From contig NZ_CP063832.1 in the NCBI RefSeq assembly GCF_023277925.1, positions 3,054,001 to 3,118,000 on the forward strand: a stretch of 64,000 nt of DNA, given 5' to 3'. Position numbers and translations under genes: made by a program. Position 1 is the first letter of the stretch; each line of letters opens with the position of its first letter. Origin of the DNA: Pseudomonas entomophila. Lineage in GTDB: Bacteria; Pseudomonadota; Gammaproteobacteria; Pseudomonadales; Pseudomonadaceae. Of the stretch, positions 42,086 through 63,819 are shown one piece after another. The notes below the pieces were generated by a model. It made no database searches and was not told where the DNA came from. It saw only the letters and a list, made by a program, of their open reading frames with translations.

Positions 42086-42199
42086 GCGCATCGGCGTCCT
42101 GTGGGCCTTGAGACCCGTGGGCTACAGGCCGCCGACAGGCTTTTTATAACCTTGGGCTTCTAATCCGGGAGGGGTTATGGTAAAAAGTCGGGCGCAAAC

Positions 42200-42253
42200 G
42201 CGGGTATAGTTTAGTGGCAAAACGAAAGCTTCCCAAGCTTTAGTTGAGGGTTC
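42200..42253 (+). pseudogene. 3'-degenerate tRNA-Gly copy
   Basis: The first 54 bases match the intact tRNA-Gly at 42295 except for two changes, which form a compensated pair in the anticodon stem (G-C to A-T). The anticodon loop TTCCCAA is kept. After GAGGGTTC the T-arm and 3' acceptor strand are replaced by unrelated sequence, so no cloverleaf can close. It looks like a scar of tandem duplication or of integration at a tRNA 3' end. Confidence 0.75.
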
Positions 42254-42294
42254 TTATAGGACTCGCCATTTTGTGACCAAGCGTCTGATGCAAA

Positions 42295-42368
42295 GCGGGT
42301 ATAGTTTAGTGGCAAAACGGAAGCTTCCCAAGCTTCAGTTGAGGGTTCGATTCCCTCTACCCGCTCCA
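42295..42368 (+). tRNA. tRNA-Gly (anticodon CCC)
   Basis: A full cloverleaf can be drawn: acceptor GCGGGTA/TACCCGC, D-arm GTTT/AAAC, anticodon stem GAAGC/GCTTC with loop TTCCCAA (CCC), T-arm GAGGG/CCCTC with loop TTCGATT, discriminator T and an encoded CCA. tRNA-Gly(CCC) genes are known integration sites for elements such as ICEclc. The accessory region begins directly downstream. Confidence 0.95.
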
Positions 42369-42954: not shown

Positions 42955-43182
42955 ATGCCTCCGGTGAGGGCCGCAGACCACCTGGAGCTCTGTGATTGCA
43001 TCAAGGGTTGCGCCCTGGTAGCAGAAGCCGATCTCCGCACGAGTGCTCCTCTTGAGGCTAACGACACCTTCGCCTTCCCTAGCTTGGAACCGTCACCAGG
43101 CCAGCGTGCAGAGTCAGCATCATCAGGCTACCTCTACCAGGTGCTTGGCGCGATGCCCGCTAGCGGGATGACCACCGCATGA
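42955..43182 (+). CDS. possible small leader gene coupled to the first recombinase
   Basis: A 75-codon frame beginning MPPVRAADHLELCDCIKG ends in ATGA shared with the recombinase start at 43179. Its start codon sits in the loop of a GGAGG-ATG-CCTCC hairpin, so the ribosome site and the first codons are mutually paired. The frame continues upstream to 42877 without a ribosome site. No similarity recognised; it may be a translated leader rather than a working protein. Confidence 0.35.
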   Translation: MPPVRAADHLELCDCIKGCALVAEADLRTSAPLEANDTFAFPSLEPSPGQRAESASSGYLYQVLGAMPASGMTTA

Positions 43183-44558
43183 AGAACGTGCTCTACGTGG
43201 TTGCCGGCTACCCTCGACTCTACGACTTAACCACAGGTGAGCCAATTGAGGCGTTTAATACTCACTCGGACTACATCTGCAACCAGATTAGACAAACATT
43301 TTCTAGCGATACACCTGAGCAATACACTAGAAACCTGGCTCGTTTTTTTGATTTCAGTTATGAAACCGGAGTAATGGGTTCCTCCCCGCTTAAAGAAGAA
43401 GCCGCCATTAAAACAATTTACCTTTACTACGACTTCTTAATAAATGGCGCCGAAAGCCAAGACTACGTAATCCGCAAAGCCGCCATATCACTCCAACACA
43501 AGCCTGTATCGTGCGTCAGCGCAAATACCTACTTAGCACCAGTAAATGGTTTCCTACGTTTAGCACAGGTCAAGCTCAAAGATACTGCAAGGCTGCTGAA
43601 AATTCTTACAGGAAACAATGCATTCGATCATGTGAAGTCGCTACCTATACTAGAAGATAGAGAGCGTTCAAAAGCAGAGATGGATAGCATCCATAATAAA
43701 ACATTGAAGTACGACAGAGAGTCGGACACCTACAACAACCTGGCAGCAGGTGGAATTCGCGGTGGAAAAGTTCCAGGCAACAGCCTCCCCAAACACTTCC
43801 CCATTAACAAAATCCAGAGCTTCCTTAACGGAATTGAAGACCCAATGCATCGTTGCTGTGCGGCACTAATGGCAGCAGGAGGAGTGCGTCAATCCGAGCT
43901 TTGGGCGTTGAGGATTGAGGACATTGATGAGATTGCACGAACCATAAAGATTGAAGACCCGAATTTCCATCGAAACCCAAGCGGTGCACAGGCTCATAAG
44001 AAACTAGCCTACAAAGGCCGCACCACTGCGGCACTTGTGCTATTCGAACCATTCAAGGCGACGTTCTATGAGTCACTTTCAGAATACCTGGCTGTAAGGC
44101 CAAATTCTTCAAGTGACTATTTATTTGTTTCAAATTCAAAACAAACCTACGGCATGCCATTGCTTACATGCCAACAACCAAACACAACCAACAAGTTATT
44201 CAATAGATCCTTGAAGAAGGCTCAGAAAAGACTATGGCCGAACGAGAGCCAGGATGAAATCTTTACCTCCCACAGTCTGAGGCACTTCTATGGAGTCTGG
44301 GCCAGAAACTTTGTCTACATCCCAGGCCGACCAACTATTGGTCTTGAGCTAGCTGAAATCCAAGTATTGATGGGCCACAAGGACATCAAGACGACAGCAA
44401 TGTATGCCAAACTCTCAGAGGAAAACATAATTGCTGAAATCGAAATAGCCGAACGAAACAAGATGTACCTGGAAACAAACCAGGACATAAATGAGATTCG
44501 AGCTGCAGTATATATCGAATTAGGCAACGAGCTTAAATCCCGGATGAGAAATGATTAA
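43179..44558 (+). CDS. gmtY: tyrosine recombinase, GmtY-like (Gamma-Mobile-Trio)
   Basis: The 459-residue protein is a tyrosine recombinase with a complete catalytic set: R237 (GGVRQSELWALRI), H365-R368 (HSLRHFYGVW), H400 (LMGHKDIKTT) and Y409. The N-terminal ~210 residues would be the core-binding/SAM-like part. It leads a tight operon with a second, much larger tyrosine recombinase (8-bp overlap) and a small HTH/coiled-coil protein, the order described for GMT islands. The GMT name is recalled from the family layout and not verified; a Tn554-like recombinase is the alternative. AT-rich codon use sets it apart from the core genes. Confidence 0.8.
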   Translation: MKNVLYVVAGYPRLYDLTTGEPIEAFNTHSDYICNQIRQTFSSDTPEQYTRNLARFFDFSYETGVMGSSPLKEEAAIKTIYLYYDFLINGAESQDYVIRKAAISLQHKPVSCVSANTYLAPVNGFLRLAQVKLKDTARLLKILTGNNAFDHVKSLPILEDRERSKAEMDSIHNKTLKYDRESDTYNNLAAGGIRGGKVPGNSLPKHFPINKIQSFLNGIEDPMHRCCAALMAAGGVRQSELWALRIEDIDEIARTIKIEDPNFHRNPSGAQAHKKLAYKGRTTAALVLFEPFKATFYESLSEYLAVRPNSSSDYLFVSNSKQTYGMPLLTCQQPNTTNKLFNRSLKKAQKRLWPNESQDEIFTSHSLRHFYGVWARNFVYIPGRPTIGLELAEIQVLMGHKDIKTTAMYAKLSEENIIAEIEIAERNKMYLETNQDINEIRAAVYIELGNELKSRMRND

Positions 44559-47500
44559 CTACGGCACGAAAGTCGAAACACTTGACTCTACCAATATTAG
44601 CCTAGAAATGGGAGAGGCACTATCAGCCCTTTCCAAATGGACTAAAAATGAAATTGGTGTAAATTTCAGATACGACCCAGAATCTAAAAGTGCCCAGGCC
44701 AGAAGCCGCTTCGCCCTACAAGGCATCGAAATTCATAGATCTCTTTATGATTTCACTCATGAAGAGATGCACATCATGTACAAGCTCTGTATCAAAAAAG
44801 CTAGCGAGCGTACTGAAATTTCGGGCCTGTACAGAAAACTTATGGGCTTTTCACCAAAAATCTTCGAAGACGCCTTAGGGTTGAGAGTTCCATTTCGTGC
44901 CATGTTCGTACTGCTTTGGATTAAAGGCAAAGCGACTCTACCGTACACTTTCACCACTGAGGGTGTATTCCATAAATACCCAATACTTACTGAAGAGAGC
45001 AAAGGTTTCATTTATAACCTAGCCACCACTGCTCCTCAGACCATTAAACCGTCAAGGGTTTTCCAGTATCGCACCAACTGGCATTCCCCTGAGGAGGTGT
45101 CATTTGAAGAAGTGTGGGATGCCGCCCCGTTCATTAGCAAATCTACAGACCATGATAACAATGATTTTCGCTATCAAGCTTGGCTGAATGCATTCTCATC
45201 ACGACACCCCGAGCGAATAACACAAGAGCAAGTTTTTTATCTCGAGAAATATCAACAATTCTTGAGCGCTGATAAATCAACACTCAACTTTCCTGGCAAA
45301 CAAACTCAAACCTACAATGAGTTCAAGGAATACTATAATTGCACCCCCCACCAAGCTAAGGGGCTTTCCCGCGTAGAGCGTCAGCGCCAGAGGAGAAATA
45401 TTAGCCAGGAAAAAAAAGCGGTCAAGAAAGATCTTAATATCAAAGCAAAGTACAAGGAAGCAATCGACAGCTTCATTCAAAGTGGAGACGATTATAGCCC
45501 TGCGGAGCTTGCATTAGTTTTACGCAAAATACCGAAGTCACTAAAAGATTTCAGCTGGCTGAACAACAGTCACTATTACACTCGAGAGCATGTTGACCTT
45601 AACAAGGTTAGCAGCACCTGGATTGCTGCAAGCAAAATGTTCTTGGAGCACATTAAAAAAAACGGTGATTCGACTTCCACAAAGAAAACCAAAATCAAGA
45701 ACATAAACTTTCTTTTTGATTACTTGTTCTGTTATCTGCCCATTTGGTTTGAATGCAACCCTGATTCCCTGATAAGACTCCCTACATCAATATGCGAATT
45801 TGAGAGAGTTCTATTTTGGAACAACCATATAAGCGAGGATGACAAAAAAAGCTATTTGTTTAAATCAGCAGGAATCCCAGGCGACATATCCCTGCCGATC
45901 ACCGCCTGCCAATTTTACGACCAAGCGTATAGCAAAAAGACCAAGTCATCTTTTGTACTTCACATTTTCGAATTTTTTGAGTTCTGCCGAGCCAACCGAG
46001 TGCTACTTAACCAGGTAACTGGAAGCTCGATGGACGCCGAGTTTGCTAACCCGGTGAATCTTATAATCGACCGCACAGGCAGTGGCTCACGTGGGAGCAG
46101 CAATAAAGTCCCGCTACCGCTTGATTCAACACTGATCGCCAAATCCTATATTCAAGCCATCAACGATATAGGGGTTAATATTCGCACAAAGATACTTAAT
46201 AACGAAATTAGCGAAAGCCTAATTGAAAAAATAAAATCCCAAGAATGGATAACTCTCTCAGATCTTGGCCTAGATTATACTATCAAGATTCAGTCTTCAA
46301 TTGATGATTCTCTCGATATCCCTCTCACAAGAATTGTGAACGTGTATTCGTGGTATTTGGGGCGATATTCAAATATCAGCAATCCCATCTCAGTCCCATG
46401 GATGACCGTAGTCAGAATGCTGTCTATCGCCCTGTACACGGGATTGAGGATGCAGAACTGTCAATGGCTTGACATCAACACATTCGATCAATTTGTTCAA
46501 GGCTCTAACTATCCAATTCTCTCATCCTGCATGATATTTGTGAATACAGATAAAAACGGGAAAGAACGCCCCGCAGTGATATCAAGTGATGTGATGAACT
46601 CACTACTTGATGAAAAGGAGTTCCAAACCAATATTTTCACCAGACCAGTTACTCCTACGTTTTATGAAGGCGACCAAGACGACCCACAAGAATACGGGCC
46701 AATATATCCACTATTCAGAAGCCCTTGGGTGAGCTACAGCCAACCATTCTCAGATAACTCATACACATTGGTCTGGCCTAAGATCCTTAAAGGCATCGAA
46801 GAAGTTTATAATTCATTAGTACCACAAGACCGCCATCACACGTTCGTAAAGACTGGCGTCGATGGCAAACTCATGGCTATCCACACCCCCCACGCATTGC
46901 GAGCAACGTGGATCACGCACATGAAAATTTATGGGCACCTAGAGGTTTCCATTATTCAAGGACAGGTAGCACATGAAAATGAATATACGACCAACTATTA
47001 CGTAGTCCCTAATGCGAAAGAGCTTATGGAGCAGATAGATATTGCAAATGCCAAGGTGGCATCATCTGCCTGGAGCAGGCTGAAAGGTATCAAACAAGCA
47101 AATTCGCATCCTCAATCCGTCATTCCAAGGGAATGGGCTCACAATAGGGTAGCGTTAGCCAAAGACCAGAGTTTTATTAGCATTTCTTCCGCCATAATAG
47201 AGACGGAGGCTAGTGGAATAGAATTAATCGCTACTACTGCCAATGAGCCTGTAGCTTTTTTCACTCAGTGTGTCTGTGTCAAAAACGGCGAATGCCCCAA
47301 ACAGCTGATTGCTTTCACTGGCCGTGAGCGTGTATGTGGGCTCTGCCCCATTGCCGTATTTGGTGTCGACCATTTGCCTGGTATCAACTGCATTATGAGG
47401 CGTTTGGCAGGTAGGTCAGAGCAGCTGATTCAGCAGCTCAAGAAGCTCAAGGCCAGTGACGCTAGCCCCGAGGAAATCGAGTATGTCCATCACGACTTGA

Positions 47501-47901
47501 CTATAAACAAACTAGAACTGGCTAGTTATCTTCACATCAGCCAGCTTCTCAACAAACATTTGGAAACGGCCAAGAACGAAGTTGGTTTAATCACCAGGTT
47601 GCGCGATATCAAAGAGTACGTGAAACACGATATCAACATGAGCAATCCCGCACAGCGAGTCATCGCTCAAATCCTAGATAGCTCACTCTTTCCTCAACTT
47701 ACCGGGGATGGCTATCCACATCTCATCCAGAAAATTGCGAAAAGTCCTGATTTGCTCCAAGTGGCCCTGAGCGATCCTGATGCAAGAGAAATGTATACCG
47801 CTCAAATCCTAACCATCATGACAACCATGGGCATTTCACTTAGTGAGCTTAGTGACAGCATTGAGTCTAGGCATATCAAATTGCTTGAGGCCGCCGCATG
47901 A
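44551..47901 (+). CDS. gmtZ: large tyrosine recombinase, GmtZ-like, with Cys cluster
   Basis: The 1116-residue protein has its catalytic domain in the middle: R633 (YTGLRMQNCQW), H781-R784 (HALRATWITHM), H808 (GQVAHENEYTTNYY) and Tyr 816 or 817. About 600 residues precede it, with basic patches (RQRQRRNISQEKKAVKK) and a likely DNA-binding SAM-like domain. Behind it is a cysteine cluster (C907, C909, C915, C929, C932) that may bind zinc, then a helical tail. The start overlaps the previous gene by eight bases and the stop overlaps the next by four (ATGA). It probably acts with GmtY-like in element integration; the division of labour is unknown. Confidence 0.78.
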   Translation: MINYGTKVETLDSTNISLEMGEALSALSKWTKNEIGVNFRYDPESKSAQARSRFALQGIEIHRSLYDFTHEEMHIMYKLCIKKASERTEISGLYRKLMGFSPKIFEDALGLRVPFRAMFVLLWIKGKATLPYTFTTEGVFHKYPILTEESKGFIYNLATTAPQTIKPSRVFQYRTNWHSPEEVSFEEVWDAAPFISKSTDHDNNDFRYQAWLNAFSSRHPERITQEQVFYLEKYQQFLSADKSTLNFPGKQTQTYNEFKEYYNCTPHQAKGLSRVERQRQRRNISQEKKAVKKDLNIKAKYKEAIDSFIQSGDDYSPAELALVLRKIPKSLKDFSWLNNSHYYTREHVDLNKVSSTWIAASKMFLEHIKKNGDSTSTKKTKIKNINFLFDYLFCYLPIWFECNPDSLIRLPTSICEFERVLFWNNHISEDDKKSYLFKSAGIPGDISLPITACQFYDQAYSKKTKSSFVLHIFEFFEFCRANRVLLNQVTGSSMDAEFANPVNLIIDRTGSGSRGSSNKVPLPLDSTLIAKSYIQAINDIGVNIRTKILNNEISESLIEKIKSQEWITLSDLGLDYTIKIQSSIDDSLDIPLTRIVNVYSWYLGRYSNISNPISVPWMTVVRMLSIALYTGLRMQNCQWLDINTFDQFVQGSNYPILSSCMIFVNTDKNGKERPAVISSDVMNSLLDEKEFQTNIFTRPVTPTFYEGDQDDPQEYGPIYPLFRSPWVSYSQPFSDNSYTLVWPKILKGIEEVYNSLVPQDRHHTFVKTGVDGKLMAIHTPHALRATWITHMKIYGHLEVSIIQGQVAHENEYTTNYYVVPNAKELMEQIDIANAKVASSAWSRLKGIKQANSHPQSVIPREWAHNRVALAKDQSFISISSAIIETEASGIELIATTANEPVAFFTQCVCVKNGECPKQLIAFTGRERVCGLCPIAVFGVDHLPGINCIMRRLAGRSEQLIQQLKKLKASDASPEEIEYVHHDLTINKLELASYLHISQLLNKHLETAKNEVGLITRLRDIKEYVKHDINMSNPAQRVIAQILDSSLFPQLTGDGYPHLIQKIAKSPDLLQVALSDPDAREMYTAQILTIMTTMGISLSELSDSIESRHIKLLEAAA

Positions 47902-48512
47902 ATGTAGCGGCCAAAGGCACTCATCCGAAAAAGAAACAATTAAAATCCACCCTGGGACGCTTGAAGATCGCCATCAAGCAACTTATACGAGATGAGTCTA
48001 CGTTCGAGAATAAGTCGCGACTGGCAGAGAAACTTGGAGAAATTATAGATATAGATCCTTCCACGTTCAGAAAATCAAATGGTGAGCATCGTAAGATGCT
48101 CAACCAGTATTTACACATCTTGGTTCCTGGCACCAAGGTCGTCGTGGAAGACGTTCAGATGGAGCTAAAGGCGCTGCGCAGCCAGGTTGTAGAGCGCGAC
48201 AGGAAAATTGAAATCTACAAAAAAGTGTTATCTGAACAACAGTCTGTGCAATCCCCTCATCCACCCGACGAAGCTAAAGTTCATAGTGAAGGGTATTACT
48301 TTGAATACGAGATGACATGTTTTTTTCTCAAGGATATTTTGAACGCAAACCCTAATCTAAAATTTGACAACGGCAGGCTTTATGATCATGCAACCTTCTC
48401 TGGTGATCCCGAGCTTGTCTCTGACAAGAAGCATACTGATGCCTACCTGAGATGGGAAAATGGACGCAATAGAACTCATAAACGAATTGAACAGCTTGAA
48501 TCTGAAGAATGA
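47898..48512 (+). CDS. gmtX: small HTH/coiled-coil protein, GmtX-like
   Basis: The 204-residue protein has a basic N-terminus, an HTH-like region (SRLAEKLGEIIDIDPSTFRK), a heptad-rich coiled coil (VQMELKALRSQVVERDRKIEIYKKVL, about residues 88-113) and an acidic-aromatic C-terminal part. Its position as third gene after two tyrosine recombinases, with ATGA coupling, fits GmtX or the TnpC accessory proteins of Tn554-type transposons. It probably assists the recombinase complex. Confidence 0.65.
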   Translation: MNVAAKGTHPKKKQLKSTLGRLKIAIKQLIRDESTFENKSRLAEKLGEIIDIDPSTFRKSNGEHRKMLNQYLHILVPGTKVVVEDVQMELKALRSQVVERDRKIEIYKKVLSEQQSVQSPHPPDEAKVHSEGYYFEYEMTCFFLKDILNANPNLKFDNGRLYDHATFSGDPELVSDKKHTDAYLRWENGRNRTHKRIEQLESEE

Positions 48513-48894
48513 ACGAGCAGTAGCACTAAGGGCAATGGCCGTTGAAAAGATCAAAGGTGGGCAACCCTTTTTGAAGCATGGCAATGGGCTGAATCTCACG
48601 TGGCTAGCTAACGAGATCGGCACCAGCCGCCAAATCTTTTACCCCGACCGTTGCTCAATTGAGATTGCAAATGTCTTGCAGACGCTAAACAAGAACCTAG
48701 ACAAGCTCAATATTTCCTCTATGGCCAAAACCAGCAACAGATCAAAGGATAAAAGAGTACAGACGCATATCCTAAAAGTCAGAGAAGAAAACGCTTTTTT
48801 GAGGTCTCGAATTCGTCAGCTCGAAATGCTGAAAAGTTCGATCTTTATCAACTCCTTGCTAATTGACCTCGCTGATGACGATCTACTTAGTTAA
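48460..48894 (+). CDS. TnpC-like HTH/coiled-coil accessory protein
   Basis: The 144-residue protein combines an HTH whose recognition helix reads NLTWLANEIGTSRQIFYPDR, the pattern seen in TnpC-type proteins, with a C-terminal coiled coil (HILKVREENAFLRSRIRQLEML). It overlaps the preceding gene by 53 bp and the next by 20 bp, so it belongs to the same operon. Together with the 204-residue protein this gives the element two small accessory proteins, one more than the trio. Confidence 0.65.
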   Translation: MDAIELINELNSLNLKNERAVALRAMAVEKIKGGQPFLKHGNGLNLTWLANEIGTSRQIFYPDRCSIEIANVLQTLNKNLDKLNISSMAKTSNRSKDKRVQTHILKVREENAFLRSRIRQLEMLKSSIFINSLLIDLADDDLLS

Positions 48895-50719
48895 CGAAAT
48901 CTCTCATCGCCTTGACGGTACTACTGTCGTCAACTGCATAACCCAACGCAGCCATCGACGGCTGAACCTGCGCTTATCTGCAGGCAGCTCCGACACTGCT
49001 ATATTGGTCGGCAGCGCATACGATTGCACATGGCGTTTCAAACTCGGAATTAGGAATGTGACATCTGTTTTACCAGCAACAATCCCGGATTGTTTCTGGC
49101 CTGTGCTTGTTTCTAAAAGTTTTTACATCCCTAACCTGACATTACCCAAGAAACTTAGGTCAACCTTACTTGGCCTCTCTCCCCCCTTGCAAACCCAGCT
49201 TTTGAGCTCACTTTCCAAGCGTGAGACTACTCTCTTCGAGGGGTACTTGCCTGAACCATACTTAAGCGAATTAGCCTTCCATATTGCCGAGTCACAACAA
49301 CGTCATTTGACACTAAGCGCAATGCTACGAGCGGGGATTTCGGTAAGAAATTCTGAGGCAGTTTTCGCAGTCCATGGAAAGGAGTCCCTTCAAGTTATTA
49401 AAGACCCAATGAGGCTGCGCCAGTTCCAACCTCTAGCACCCGACTCTCTCCACGATGGTTACCGACTAATTGAATGGCTTGAACGGAGTGCCAAGTGCGG
49501 TTCAACAATTATAAATGAACTAGATATACCACCTGACCTTCGCCACCGAATAGATTGGTGTAAATCACAAAAACTTATAATTGGTGGTATGGGTAAAGTA
49601 CAACTCGTCACACATGCTATCCAGCAGCGATTGCTCAGGCAACAGATTCAACGCGTCAGTGATGGATTTTTTCCTCGCTATGCAGCATCTGAAATCGACT
49701 ATGCGTACTCACGTTATTCCGGGCTCATGGGAACCCTTGATGGCCAGGATTTTTATGAGGCTGTATCGACAGCCATCAACTCTCGCATCTCCTATTTATC
49801 CTCCAGTTCCCTTCCCTCCACCTTGGACTTCATATCTGAACTCTCCGCGATGATCCAGCTTCTCGGGGCGCAAGCTCCCCTAATCGTCGTTAGGTCGAAA
49901 GAACACACACTGCGCTATTCGAGCCTGGATAGTGAATGCAAGCTAATCTCGGAACTCCCACAGATCGAAGATGGGTACAGATCGTTTATCGCGCCAGACT
50001 TTCACCACTACAGCATTAGTGACTACCATAGTCTGTTCACGGCTCTCACTCCTAAAGACAGGCTGGTTGCAATATCCGACCTGGCTAATGCTACCACTCA
50101 CTACCCCGGCTCACAGGTTGCTAGGCAGTTCTCCGAATACTTCCAGCATGCCGATATACCTGGCAGCCCAGGCAGCGCTATTAAATCGATAAATGACACC
50201 ACTCCATTTGACTTGCTTGTAGCCATAGAAAAATTAAAAGCAAATAAGAGATTAGCAGCCATCTGCGATGACATGGGCATCGCAGAAACAATCAACCGTT
50301 TCTCAGTTAATATGTCTGAGGACGTGCTATTAGCCACCCCAGATAGAACATACTACAAGTATGACAAGGCGATAATTTACCCTCAAATTTCTAGCGGACT
50401 CTCCCCATTTTTTTGCACGCTTCTTTCAACGAGTGATAAAGGTATTTACGCCGATTCACCTTCTGGCCCGAAACGAATCTCCGCCCAGGTGTTGAACGAG
50501 TCGCAAACCGTAACTGGCTTTGCAATGGTTCCCGAGGTGGCATGTACCATTGGTATTAAGGAAGTGATTCTAGTGTGTAGAGCATCTAATGAGGATACTC
50601 TTTCGAAAACGCTTATGAGTTATGGGATTAATATACAGTCCTGCCTCACCTACCAGAATACAGAACACTCACTAAAGCTTTCTTGCAGCATCCAAAGGAT
50701 TGTACCTTTCGTGGAGTAG
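48875..50719 (+). CDS. 614-residue protein, possible RecD2-like helicase with eroded ATPase motifs
   Basis: Not recognised by a direct family match. Read in order it follows RecD2/SF1B helicases: an OB-like N-terminus; helix-hairpin-helix segments (LSAMLRAGISVRNSEAVFAVHG...VIKDPMRL); a winged-helix end (GKVQLVTHAIQQRLLRQQI, compare VYLP..AE..IA..L); DYHSLFTALTPKDRLVAISD, matching the family LL.ALP..ARLVLVGD; and TGFAMVPEVACTIGIKEVILVC, matching AYAMTVHKSQGSEFD.VILV. The Walker A (GxxGxGKT), DEAS and Walker-like residues are absent, so it should not hydrolyse ATP. The ATG at 48875 is preferred to TTG at 48863. Last gene of the recombinase operon; the helicase reading is inference. Confidence 0.6.
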   Translation: MTIYLVNEISHRLDGTTVVNCITQRSHRRLNLRLSAGSSDTAILVGSAYDCTWRFKLGIRNVTSVLPATIPDCFWPVLVSKSFYIPNLTLPKKLRSTLLGLSPPLQTQLLSSLSKRETTLFEGYLPEPYLSELAFHIAESQQRHLTLSAMLRAGISVRNSEAVFAVHGKESLQVIKDPMRLRQFQPLAPDSLHDGYRLIEWLERSAKCGSTIINELDIPPDLRHRIDWCKSQKLIIGGMGKVQLVTHAIQQRLLRQQIQRVSDGFFPRYAASEIDYAYSRYSGLMGTLDGQDFYEAVSTAINSRISYLSSSSLPSTLDFISELSAMIQLLGAQAPLIVVRSKEHTLRYSSLDSECKLISELPQIEDGYRSFIAPDFHHYSISDYHSLFTALTPKDRLVAISDLANATTHYPGSQVARQFSEYFQHADIPGSPGSAIKSINDTTPFDLLVAIEKLKANKRLAAICDDMGIAETINRFSVNMSEDVLLATPDRTYYKYDKAIIYPQISSGLSPFFCTLLSTSDKGIYADSPSGPKRISAQVLNESQTVTGFAMVPEVACTIGIKEVILVCRASNEDTLSKTLMSYGINIQSCLTYQNTEHSLKLSCSIQRIVPFVE

Positions 50720-57063: not shown

Positions 57064-59070
57064 TCAGCTTATCATGCTCTTATCACAATCAAGAACCTCA
57101 GGCTCCTTGAGCCCAATATCAGAGAAACGCTTTCTGTAAATAGCATCGGCTCTCCACTTCACATATGCCGGGCCAGCCTTCAATGGCTTTATATCCCATG
57201 CAGTTCCTATCAGCCTAATAGCACCAGCCAGAATAGCCACAACGAGGTAAACCCAAGAGAACTGGGACTCTTTATTGAAAACGGCGTATATGCCATATGC
57301 TGCAATCACAGCTTGGCTTAGCCAAGTTACAACCGAAAGCCACTTCGCTTCCTTTTCTGCTTGCGCATTAGACGTCCAGAAAATTCTCTTCCTCATATCC
57401 TCAATGCTTGTCTCGAGCCCATCAGCTCTCGAGTTAGCCTTCAGGAGCTCGCCTTCGATTTTCTCTTTTTCGTCATTCGCTTCTTTTAAAATATCATCGG
57501 ATACTCGTTTCAAAGTTTTAGTAATCGACTCCTCCGTCAGAGCAGCTTCCTCGCCTAGAGTTAGCTTCATCAGCTCGGACTGCACGCTGTAGCTGCTACG
57601 CAGTAATTGATGATCTCTAGCGCTTAGATTGCCGCTTTTTTCCAACCGGTCGGCCTCATTTAAAACCTGATCCCAAAAATTCTTTGTGGGACGAGCAGCT
57701 GCATATGCATATGCTAACATTTCCTTTTTAGGAAGTGCAGGAGCGCCTTGCGGCGCCTTAAGCCATGCGATGTTAGCGAGACTAAAGTCCGTAATGACAG
57801 TTGAAACTTCGCGCGACATCTCGAAAGTTTTGCCGTACTCGTAAGCGGCCTTTGAAAAAGATGAGTTACTTGTAACCAATACTGCCTTTGCTTTTTCAAT
57901 CGAACGGGGAGACGCCCCTTTCCTCAGAACATAAATGCTTCTCACCGAGCGAATATCGTAGTCTTTGGCGCGCGGGTTATGATAGTCAATTTCATCGCTA
58001 AGCACTGCCGAAAATGCTTCCTCTGAAATTTCAAACTTATGATTTTCTTTAGTATATGATGGAGTTGCAACAGGCGTAACACCATACTCCTCAAGAATTT
58101 CGCTTGCTCTTCCACCGATAAGGATCAGGTCTGATTTGGTTTTACCTGACTTCCTGGCCTCAGCAACTATTGTGCCTCTACCACGAGGGGAATCGACAAA
58201 GTCAGCCGAGGATGAAATTGAAGTTGTTAGTTCGTCTAGGGTATGAGTAAAGTAGCATACCTTCCCCTTCAACCTTCTTACTAAATCAACAACTTCTTTT
58301 ATTGCTTGCCTTTCTTGCTCCCCTTCAAGACCCAGCAGCTGGATCAAAAGAGGCGTATCAAAGTAAAATATAACCTCGCTATAGGAGTCCGAAACCGAGC
58401 TTAGATCCGGGCAGAGTAAAGCATTGGCCAACATATGCCCTTGCATTAGCATCACAAACGCATCAAATATGGCTGGTTGATTCTGTATCTCACCAACAAA
58501 CTGAGCCACGAGAGCAACTTGCCAGTTCTCATCCCTCTCGAGAGCCGGCAAGGTGGTGCCACGCAGGTATGACCTTAAGCAAGGAATGGAGAACTGCGAA
58601 AGAAATACTACCAAGCACTCAGTTGCGACATCGTCAGTAATTTTTCTACCGCTGCTGTGCGCGGCATAGGCAACCAGTTCAGAAACAATGAATGCTATAT
58701 GTCTAGATGCGTTGGCTCGCTCTGCAGAAAGGTCACTACTAACTGGCTTCTTGCCAAGCACAAACTTTCCATTTTCTTTGATTAAAAACTGCTCTTTAGC
58801 GAGGCGCTGCAAGATAATTTGAATAGTTCGATGAGGTATCTCCAACCCACAAGAGTCTCGAAGCTTATTCGATATGGATGCGTCTGACACTACTTCCGGG
58901 CAATCATTAGCTAAAATCTCGGTTACGTAAGGCTTAAGATATTCAAGGTAATCACCACCCGAGTCGATGTTCACCTTAAGCATTGCTAAGCTACATAATG
59001 TATCCGAGCTGCTCAATGTGACTTCCTTATTTGTGAGTTTTACGGCGCCGGGTACTTTTAAGATTGTCAT
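57064..59070 (-). CDS. membrane-anchored PIN-like protein
   Basis: The 668-residue protein has an N-terminal winged-helix region (residues ~45-110, IPHRTIQIILQRLAKEQFLIKENGKFVLG), a long helical segment, a PIN-like nuclease core (VIFYFDTPLLIQLLGL with D238; THTLDELTTS; AKAVLVTSNSSFSKAA) and, after a coiled coil (EKEKIEGELLKANSRADGLETSIEDM), two C-terminal membrane helices (VTWLSQAVIAAYGIYAVF, WVYLVVAILAGAIRLIG). The ATG at 59070 has AAGG seven bases upstream; the frame is open to 59121. No partner gene is coupled. Defence-related activity is a guess from context. Confidence 0.6.
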   Translation of the reverse strand: MTILKVPGAVKLTNKEVTLSSSDTLCSLAMLKVNIDSGGDYLEYLKPYVTEILANDCPEVVSDASISNKLRDSCGLEIPHRTIQIILQRLAKEQFLIKENGKFVLGKKPVSSDLSAERANASRHIAFIVSELVAYAAHSSGRKITDDVATECLVVFLSQFSIPCLRSYLRGTTLPALERDENWQVALVAQFVGEIQNQPAIFDAFVMLMQGHMLANALLCPDLSSVSDSYSEVIFYFDTPLLIQLLGLEGEQERQAIKEVVDLVRRLKGKVCYFTHTLDELTTSISSSADFVDSPRGRGTIVAEARKSGKTKSDLILIGGRASEILEEYGVTPVATPSYTKENHKFEISEEAFSAVLSDEIDYHNPRAKDYDIRSVRSIYVLRKGASPRSIEKAKAVLVTSNSSFSKAAYEYGKTFEMSREVSTVITDFSLANIAWLKAPQGAPALPKKEMLAYAYAAARPTKNFWDQVLNEADRLEKSGNLSARDHQLLRSSYSVQSELMKLTLGEEAALTEESITKTLKRVSDDILKEANDEKEKIEGELLKANSRADGLETSIEDMRKRIFWTSNAQAEKEAKWLSVVTWLSQAVIAAYGIYAVFNKESQFSWVYLVVAILAGAIRLIGTAWDIKPLKAGPAYVKWRADAIYRKRFSDIGLKEPEVLDCDKSMIS

Positions 59071-59411
59071 AACTACCTTGTACTTATTATATTTCCACGA
59101 CTGTGTAAGCTGAACACACATTTCGATCTATTGAGATTGCATAGTGCAGCCTAAAGGCTAGCAACGGGCCACCATAACGTCCAATATTTTTGTTACTCCA
59201 CCAGATTTAGGCGAGGTTGAGGCAGGTCTACCGATGCAGTGGTGGTTTGGCCACAAACCTGTGTGGTTCGCGCTGTGTGACTTTCAGTATGTATTTCAAG
59301 GCCTTAAAGCGTTACTGACAAGGTAAAGTGGCCGCTGTGAGGTAAGCTTAGGCGTTCTAACGCCGTGGATCTCTGCTCTTGCTACGGAACCTTGCGGTTC
59401 ACGAACCTCTG
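59071..59411. other. AT-rich to mixed gap with no gene
   Basis: About 340 bp between the PIN-like gene start and the umuC remnant; I see only a short AGCC-TAAA-GGCT hairpin (59149-59160) and no gene. Confidence 0.5.
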
Positions 59412-62022: not shown

Positions 62023-63819
62023 ATGTCGGAACTGCATCAGCTTCAGAAAGCCGCTTCTCTTCATGACTTGGCAGCCATCCTTAATTACACTCCAAGCGCC
62101 TTATCGTACCTAGTGTACAAGAGGCCTGCGAAATACACTCAATTCACAATCCCTAAAAGTAATGGCGAACCACGCCAAATCTGCGCTCCTTGCGATGAGC
62201 TAAAAGCTCTTCAGAAACAAGTAAAAGTCCTCTTAGACAAATGCTTGGCCACCATTGAGGCTAAAAGTCAGGCACGGGGGGCGATTTCACATGGTTTTAA
62301 AGCAGGACATTCCATTATCACCAATGCAGAGCCCCATAAAAAAAGAAGGTACGTGTTCAACGTCGACCTTGAGGGCTTCTTCGACTCTATTCACATGGGT
62401 AGGATTCGTGGATTCTTAATCAGCAACAAGGATTTCAAGCTCAACCCTAAAGTGGCCACTGTCCTAGCCCAGATAATGTGTCATGATGACAAGCTGCCTC
62501 AGGGTAGCCCTACCTCACCGGTCGCTTCCAATCTGATCGGTCATTTGCTGGACTTAAGGCTTGTCCAGTTAGCAAAGAGAAATGGTTGTTCGTACTCACG
62601 GTACGCCGACGACTTAACTTTCTCAACCAACAAGAAAGATTTTCCTGAGGAAATCGCCTCTTCTGACGAAAGCGGAAACTCATGGTCGGCAGGCCCATCG
62701 CTAATTAAAATAATTCAAAAAAGCGGGTTCAAGCTTAATCATAATAAAACCCGCATGCAGTACCGAACCAATAGACAGTCCGTGACCGGCCTAGTCGTTA
62801 ACCAAATAACTAATACCCCTGCGGAGGTTCGACGCACCGCTCGTGCCATGGCTTTCCACCTGTTCAACAACGGATACTATCTGATAAAGGACGAAGTGCC
62901 AGGAGCGGAGATAGAGAAGGCTCCCATGATCAGGGACTATACCCAACTGGAATCGCTTGACGGGTTGTTTAGCTTTATATACATGGTTGATCAGTTTAAC
63001 CGCAAGAAAATCGCAGATAACAACAATGTAAAAATTGAGTCCTTCAAGAAAACAAGCCTTGAAAAAATTCATGCGGACTTTTTATTTTACAAGAACTTCT
63101 ACGCCTCGCCGCTGCCTACAATTCTGTGCGAAGGCAAAACAGATAATGTTTACCTTACATGTGCCATGAAGTCTCTAATGGATAAGTTTCCACGACTTTG
63201 CAAGGCCAGCAAGGATGGAAAGCCAGCGCTAAGAGTCCGCTTCATCAACTATTCAGAACTGACGCATAGAGCACTAGATCTGAATGGAGGCTCAGCTGAT
63301 CTCGCTGCATTCATACGCTCATATGCAAAAAATTGCGGAAAATATAAAGCACACCCGCCTTTAAGCCCAACCATTATAGTCGTTGATAACGACAGCGGCT
63401 CTGAGCCAATATTTAAAGCGATCAAAGAAGTCACCGGAAGTCGCTATGCCATTCCCAATGGAAAGGGAACCATCCTAGACAAATCTCAAACCACTTACTA
63501 TATCACCCAAAACCTATCTGTAGTTTTGACCCCATTAAAAAAAGATGGTCAGCCGACCATGATGGAAGATTTTTTCACAGCCAAGGTGCGTCAGACCGTC
63601 TGGGAAAATAAAACCTTCGAAATCTTGAGCAAGTCTCCTTCCAAGAACACGTATAACAAAAACACGTTCGCACAGAAAATCGTGAAAGCCGACCGCGCAA
63701 ATATTGATTTCAAAGGATTTTCGCCAATCCTAAAGTCGATAAGCCAGTTAATTAGAGGCCATCACTTAGACAAATCCCTGCTCAAGAAAAACTTACCCCC
63801 TAAACCAGCTAAACTTTAA
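62023..63819 (+). CDS. retron reverse transcriptase-TOPRIM fusion (Ec67 family)
   Basis: The 598-residue protein has RT motifs: NVDLEGFFDSIH (115-124), LPQGSPTSP (158-166), YSRYADDLTFS with YADD at 194-197, and the retron-type VTGLVVN (254-260). The C-terminal third is a TOPRIM domain: PTILCEGKTD (E370) and TIIVVDNDSGS (D455, D457). This is the Ec67 layout in which RT and effector nuclease domain are fused. Such retrons make a branched RNA-DNA (msDNA) from the adjoining RNA and give phage defence. All catalytic residues look intact. AAGGA precedes the ATG. Confidence 0.92.
   Translation: MSELHQLQKAASLHDLAAILNYTPSALSYLVYKRPAKYTQFTIPKSNGEPRQICAPCDELKALQKQVKVLLDKCLATIEAKSQARGAISHGFKAGHSIITNAEPHKKRRYVFNVDLEGFFDSIHMGRIRGFLISNKDFKLNPKVATVLAQIMCHDDKLPQGSPTSPVASNLIGHLLDLRLVQLAKRNGCSYSRYADDLTFSTNKKDFPEEIASSDESGNSWSAGPSLIKIIQKSGFKLNHNKTRMQYRTNRQSVTGLVVNQITNTPAEVRRTARAMAFHLFNNGYYLIKDEVPGAEIEKAPMIRDYTQLESLDGLFSFIYMVDQFNRKKIADNNNVKIESFKKTSLEKIHADFLFYKNFYASPLPTILCEGKTDNVYLTCAMKSLMDKFPRLCKASKDGKPALRVRFINYSELTHRALDLNGGSADLAAFIRSYAKNCGKYKAHPPLSPTIIVVDNDSGSEPIFKAIKEVTGSRYAIPNGKGTILDKSQTTYYITQNLSVVLTPLKKDGQPTMMEDFFTAKVRQTVWENKTFEILSKSPSKNTYNKNTFAQKIVKADRANIDFKGFSPILKSISQLIRGHHLDKSLLKKNLPPKPAKL

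Follow-up and report, generated by a model that had tools for sequence, protein, structure and literature searches.

Multi-gene operons in which tyrosine recombinases are accompanied by one additional small protein, with cargo genes downstream, are known from the GInt and SE elements. In the accessible parts of their published accounts, GInt (ginABCD) comprises three integrases in four genes including ginD (PMC5385486), and SE has the order intA-tfp-intB-srap (PMC10214605). The Gamma-Mobile-Trio (GmtX/GmtY/GmtZ) likewise has a tyrosine recombinase and a large integrase, and its islands carry defence genes as cargo (in part from PMC12715929). The roles of the accessory proteins of such multi-tyrosine-recombinase islands are poorly known, and the accessible parts of the GInt and SE accounts (PMC5385486, PMC10214605) contain no helicase-like subunit, the word "helicase" being absent from the SE main text. 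Here we describe a module with two recombinases and five genes from Pseudomonas entomophila (GCF_023277925.1, NZ_CP063832.1, positions 3,054,001-3,118,000 of the forward strand), a stretch of 64,000 nucleotides referred to below as the window, whose positions are used as coordinates throughout. The last of the five same-strand genes, arranged in the order Y-Z-X1-X2-H, is an open reading frame (ORF) at 48875-50719 encoding a 614-residue protein, H, which has the fold of a RecD2-type helicase from which the ATPase has been lost.

The RecD2-type fold, which a sequence-only reading of the window had claimed for H, is borne out by both profile and structure comparisons. In profile-profile alignment (hhalign) the H family scores 102 against RecD2-type helicases, with a maximum of 23 over 60 shuffles, and a Foldseek structure search with the predicted model of H places the RecD2 of Deinococcus radiodurans at the top rank. 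The prediction, which was inspected for a fold outside superfamily 1 (SF1), came out SF1-like, and the full-length model, of modest confidence, retains the OB and winged-helix parts. By profile comparison and structure search, read with that modest model, H has the overall fold and domain order of RecD2, with approximate limits of residues 1-70 for the OB domain, 105-185 for an HHH-like region, 193-262 for the winged helix, 300-425 for RecA1 and 446-595 for RecA2/2B, followed by a conserved tail, QRIVPFVE, at residues 607-614. A clear RecD2 signal was obtained only from the diverse family profile: profiles of single H subfamilies score weakly (21-35), a profile without the two most divergent members reaches 38, and the family aligned against only the four live helicases described below gave 64.7% and a score of 46.6 over 237 columns. 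No direct match linking H to RecD2 was returned by Pfam, NCBIfam, PHROGs, PADLOC or PDB sequences, none of the 15 H members scanned matches TIGR01448 (NCBIfam) or Pfam HHH_RecD2, and BLASTP of the window protein against one of the live helicases (L124) recovers chance pieces only.

The catalytic motifs of this fold are gone. Opposite the GTGKTT of L124 the hhalign alignment places LPSTLD (H residues 313-318; 49811-49828, plus strand), with Thr316 at the position of the lysine, and at motif II DFHH (residues 375-378; 49997-50008, plus strand) stands instead of DEAS, as judged by eye. In the columns of the family alignment the Walker A lysine and the DExx glutamate are missing from all 16 H members, none of which shows Walker A GxGKT together with DExx; motifs V and VI are unrecognisable by eye. 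The loss claimed for the window protein was confirmed there and extends to its homologues, a P-loop being found in 0 of 15. H is a pseudohelicase, with the RecD2-type fold of the SF1B branch and without the motifs for ATP binding and hydrolysis.

H is the fifth, translationally coupled gene of a tyrosine-recombinase module. Y (43179-44558, plus strand) encodes a 459-residue tyrosine recombinase with R237, K279, H365, R368, H400 and Y409 present, to which catalytic roles were assigned by eye; Z (44551-47901, plus strand) encodes a large tyrosine recombinase of 1116 residues; X1 (47898-48512, plus strand) encodes a 204-residue protein matching no known family; and X2 (48460-48894, plus strand) encodes a protein of 144 residues with a conserved block at about residues 46-64. 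Together with H on the plus strand, these genes overlap at all four junctions in the window, by 8, 4, 53 (X1/X2) and 20 (X2/H) nucleotides, and across the operon the GC content drops from about 0.63 to 0.43-0.46. The membership of H in a recombinase operon, as first proposed from the window alone, holds generally: in each of the 17 Pseudomonas genomes with a complete stretch it follows Y-Z-X1-X2 on the same strand, Z being split into two ORFs in one of them, and the gene order is constant even at about 15% identity. Outside this count are G808, in which Z and H lie on separate contigs, and G971, with a broken operon. Strong matches to Z (E < 1e-100) occur in 17 of 398 genomes, and all 17 have H, 16 by search and one in the operon. 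No homologues of H were found in plasmids, phages, five viral-contig scans or a first genome-contig scan, nor of Z in the plasmids and phages searched; class-wide samples gave one genome in 369 for H, searched with a three-row profile, and one in 369 for Z, in both cases that of the window, and divergent members elsewhere are possible.

H is kept by purifying selection. Among the A3 members, with identities as low as about 15%, its reading frame is open over 613-682 residues, the members share invariant residues, and the ratio of nonsynonymous to synonymous substitution rates (omega) is 0.15-0.37 in seven pairs, which share members. The C-terminal QRIVPFVE is the best conserved stretch of the protein. 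Before counting we dropped L011, a frameshifted copy in a broken operon that was used once, for omega; the fragments L015, L021, L024 and L025; and L023, located within a 698-residue ORF (L141) that we take to be FlhA. L001, L002 and L003 duplicate the window, L006 and L007, and contig coordinates show L026, L027, L029, L030, L031 and L033 to coincide with L017, L006, L008, L013, L014 and L018. L084 in G971 is a broken copy of the operon, and L090 in G954 is a remnant of H alone adjoining a tRNA-Gly; the two show that these islands turn over.

Sister operons with an intact-motif helicase as the fifth gene are newly reported here. Weaker matches to Z occur in 22 genomes, of which 15 were examined (those outside the sample being G669, G710, G739, G858, G893, G102 and G908), giving 17 loci with the second operons of G977 and G748. 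In four of these loci (L124, L127, L135 and L138) Y-Z-X1-X2 is followed by a 721-residue RecD2-like helicase whose motifs are readable by eye: GFGGTGKT, DEAS or DESS, HKAQGSE, and SRSKR with the motif VI arginine. The two that were scanned match TIGR01448 (L127, E 1.6e-100; L124, E 7.2e-99) and also Pfam HHH_RecD2, and the X1 and X2 proteins of these live-type operons match the profiles of the dead-type operons, those with H (X2 at E 4e-7 to 1e-6). A homologue with an intact GKT had been named in advance as an observation that would count against the sequence-only reading; no such homologue exists within the H family (0 of 15), and the homologous fifth gene of the sister operons has the motif. 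This is likely to be the ancestral state rather than a refutation, and the existence of a live counterpart makes the observation stronger than first stated. Given the shared gene order, a helicase was probably first added to a recombinase module, and its ATPase was lost afterwards in the dead branch.

Trees of Z and Y place the 14 dead-type rows on one side of a branch with an SH-like approximate likelihood ratio (SH-aLRT) support of 100, and cluster the live-type operons with L123 (G692), a locus without a helicase. The Y and Z of L123 fall in the live-helicase group, and its operon ends after X1, without X2 and the helicase. These were quick trees with SH-aLRT support, no bootstrap and several long branches, and they do not decide whether the dead and live types are sisters. 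A single capture followed by loss of the ATPase is the simplest account, short of proof, and the direction from live to dead is drawn from parsimony and gene order.

Taken together, these observations suggest that H is a recombination-complex subunit that binds DNA or has a structural role, in either case without ATP. At the attachment sites its helicase fold would grip DNA in branched or single-stranded form, or it would keep Y and Z in register; the Y-Z-X1-X2-H module would move a tRNA-Gly-targeted Pseudomonas island; and the ancestor of H would be an active RecD2-like helicase recruited to the same module, the live version of which survives in the sister operon. The conserved tail suggests a protein contact, and may dock on a partner. 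There are precedents that make a passive role plausible: in the accessible parts of the sources, the inactivated SF1 helicase domains of AddB and RecC read Chi where a helicase would track DNA (PMC4824097), and the PriA of D. radiodurans has no ATPase or unwinding activity, keeps DNA binding and contacts DnaB (PMC4504706). To the account as a whole, a pseudohelicase as the passive subunit of an island-moving recombinase module, descended from a live RecD2-like helicase, we assign a probability of roughly 0.6.

Several observations weigh against this account. Both Z (omega 0.11-0.16) and the live helicase (0.07 and 0.11) evolve more slowly than H, and the frameshifted copy L011 has an omega of 0.30, like other H pairs. 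The charge of the window protein is balanced (60 K+R versus 60 D+E), and of the 16 members 9 have a net charge of zero or below and 7 one of +4 to +16, so that DNA binding is not evident from composition. The live helicases scanned, at 332 and 337 bits, fall below the TIGR01448 equivalog cut-off of 500 bits. By sequence, ordinary chromosomal RecD2 is at least as close to H as the live operon helicase is, and descent from the live type consequently rests on gene order and the homology of X2. Furthermore, in 11 of the 17 related loci, all of which could be read beyond the third gene, nothing adjoining the operon matches the H or RecD2 profiles, so that a helicase-like fifth gene is dispensable for such recombinases. 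Among these 11 the X1 profile matches four (L123, L125, L126 and L129), the others having an ORF of similar size there, and the two remaining loci of the 17 (L128 and L131) end at a contig edge and are uninformative on the fifth gene, L131 being scored as "none" in the trees. L139 (G748) is one of the 11: downstream of its recombinase operon, at L139:1-5688, there are two ORFs for large ATPases of 883 and 892 residues; the 892-residue ORF, two genes further on, has a weak RecD2-profile match (E 1.3e-4) and was counted as cargo.

A more specific version of the passive-subunit account would make H a reading head. By analogy with RecC and AddB, H may use what was once the tracking channel to hold forked or single-stranded DNA, with no need for ATP, and so select or license the tRNA attachment site for the two recombinases, as the live sister helicase would do with ATP. 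We regard this version as a whole as tentative, and a role of H in choosing targets, which the sequence-only reading had proposed together with recognition of DNA ends or stalled forks, is a guess. The tRNA-Gly(CCC) gene is found in 13 of 17 dead-type stretches, tRNA-Met(CAT) adjoins three of the four live-type operons, and tRNA-Ser(TGA) is found in 4 of 10 scanned loci without the fifth gene, in one case on the far side. The target follows the operon type as a whole, and its choice is therefore not ascribable to H alone.

Of the competing explanations, one would have H act as a regulator of the operon or as a recombination directionality factor, using its OB and winged-helix parts to bind the promoter or the attachment sites and thereby setting excision against integration. 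Both parts are kept in the model, H is the last gene of an overlapping operon, and excisionases are often small winged-helix proteins. A large helicase fold, however, is rare among regulators, X1 and X2 are more plausible in this role, and 11 related operons lack H, so that we consider this role unlikely. It is also doubtful that H inhibits a host DNA-end processor or acts as its decoy, binding RecBCD or DNA ends and shielding the excised circle or intermediates from degradation. An ATPase-less helicase fold would be able to sit on DNA ends, RecBCD RecD chains are among the Foldseek matches of H, and the host has RecD (L055, recD 640.7 bits, cut-off 310) and no RecD2 above the cut-off. Against this, the H family scores 55.4 with the RecD2 profile but only 28.6 with that of RecD, barely over the column-shuffle maximum of 25.9; H has a constant place, closing the recombinase operon, and does not belong to the variable cargo; and the live sister helicase points to a role in the recombination reaction itself. 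That H is a relic, a decaying helicase without present function, would fit the free drift of the ATPase site among members, the faster evolution of H than of Z, the broken copies (L011/L084) and the remnant L090, but is very unlikely in view of the open frame maintained across the A3 members, the omega values, the invariant residues with the conserved tail, and the same operon position in 17 of 17 genomes. Unusual use of a nucleotide, or of a partner's ATPase, is scarcely credible: the motif II aspartate is kept in 10 of 16 members, but the key lysine and glutamate are absent from all 16, and in the window neither Pfam nor NCBIfam assigns an ATPase family to Y, Z, X1 or X2.

In the window, the integration target at the left end is a tRNA-Gly(CCC) gene at 42295-42368 (plus strand), the last 27 nucleotides of which (42342-42368, plus strand) form a candidate attL. 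This repeat recurs exactly at G000:C1:3127405-3127431, equivalent to 73405-73431 and beyond the window, which sets the island at about 31 kb, extending 9.4 kb past the window; the gene after the right-hand repeat is presumably a SulP transporter. A degenerate second tRNA-Gly lies directly upstream of the intact copy at 42194-42267 (plus strand; DNA match 42194-42253, Rfam match 42200-42267), with an Rfam tRNA score of 29 bits, at the gathering score, and is perhaps the trace of an earlier insertion. In L033 (P. violetae) and L087 (G887) the operon is inverted beside the same kind of tRNA-Gly, with the pseudohelicase end toward the tRNA. The cargo includes, at 62023-63819 (plus strand), a 598-residue reverse transcriptase with a Toprim part, a retron-type defence gene by its best PADLOC match (RT-Toprim_I-C, E 1.6e-216). 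At 57064-59121 (minus strand) there is a 685-residue protein without significant Pfam, NCBIfam or PADLOC match and with hydrophobic stretches near the C-terminus as seen by eye. Near attR and beyond the window lies a 544-residue protein (L092:7763-9397, equivalent to 70762-72396) with a PADLOC match to PDC-M68B (E 6.9e-22). In G290, GajA and GajB homologues (L005:11769-14862; PADLOC E 1.6e-148 and 1.9e-112) are located directly downstream of a related operon and, on these matches, are Gabija-type defence cargo.

The operon has two more genes than the Gamma-Mobile-Trio, and in NCBIfam the matches of Y to GmtY and of Z to GmtZ are weak (46.7 bits versus a cut-off of 340, and 40 versus 600), Y matching XerA_Arch better, at 69.3 bits. 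Since these scores are far under the cut-offs, it is at most a relative, and not a member, of that group; X1 and X2 have no match in NCBIfam, a library in which the presence of a GmtX model is unconfirmed. With recombinase matches in two of its five genes the operon does not fit GInt either, which has three integrases and ginD. No published account of H was found in the literature searched, which covered few subscription papers. With RecD2 (TIGR01448; D. radiodurans structures 3E1S, 3GP8 and 3GPL) H shares the order HHH-like region, winged helix, RecA1, 2B and RecA2, with a profile and fold match, and differs in lacking the Walker A lysine and the DExx glutamate, in being shorter and in having an extra conserved C-terminal tail. 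The live sister helicase resembles H in its place after Y-Z-X1-X2, in its fold by profile and in an NRIS block before the P-loop, and differs in its length of 721 residues, its readable motifs and its association with tRNA-Met. One genus thus holds three states of the module, with no helicase-like fifth gene, with a live RecD2-like helicase and with a dead one, making the role of a helicase in site-specific recombination, and the part of it that needs ATP, directly testable. The SF1 domains of AddB and RecC and the D. radiodurans PriA are, like H, helicase folds without ATPase, kept for DNA recognition or binding according to the accessible parts of the sources (PMC4824097, PMC4504706), a function that H would share. 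They belong to other helicase branches and act in DNA repair and replication restart rather than with a site-specific recombinase, and the likeness drawn here is one of logic; in this sense H extends, with a case from a mobile element, the few known examples of helicases that have become passive components handling DNA.
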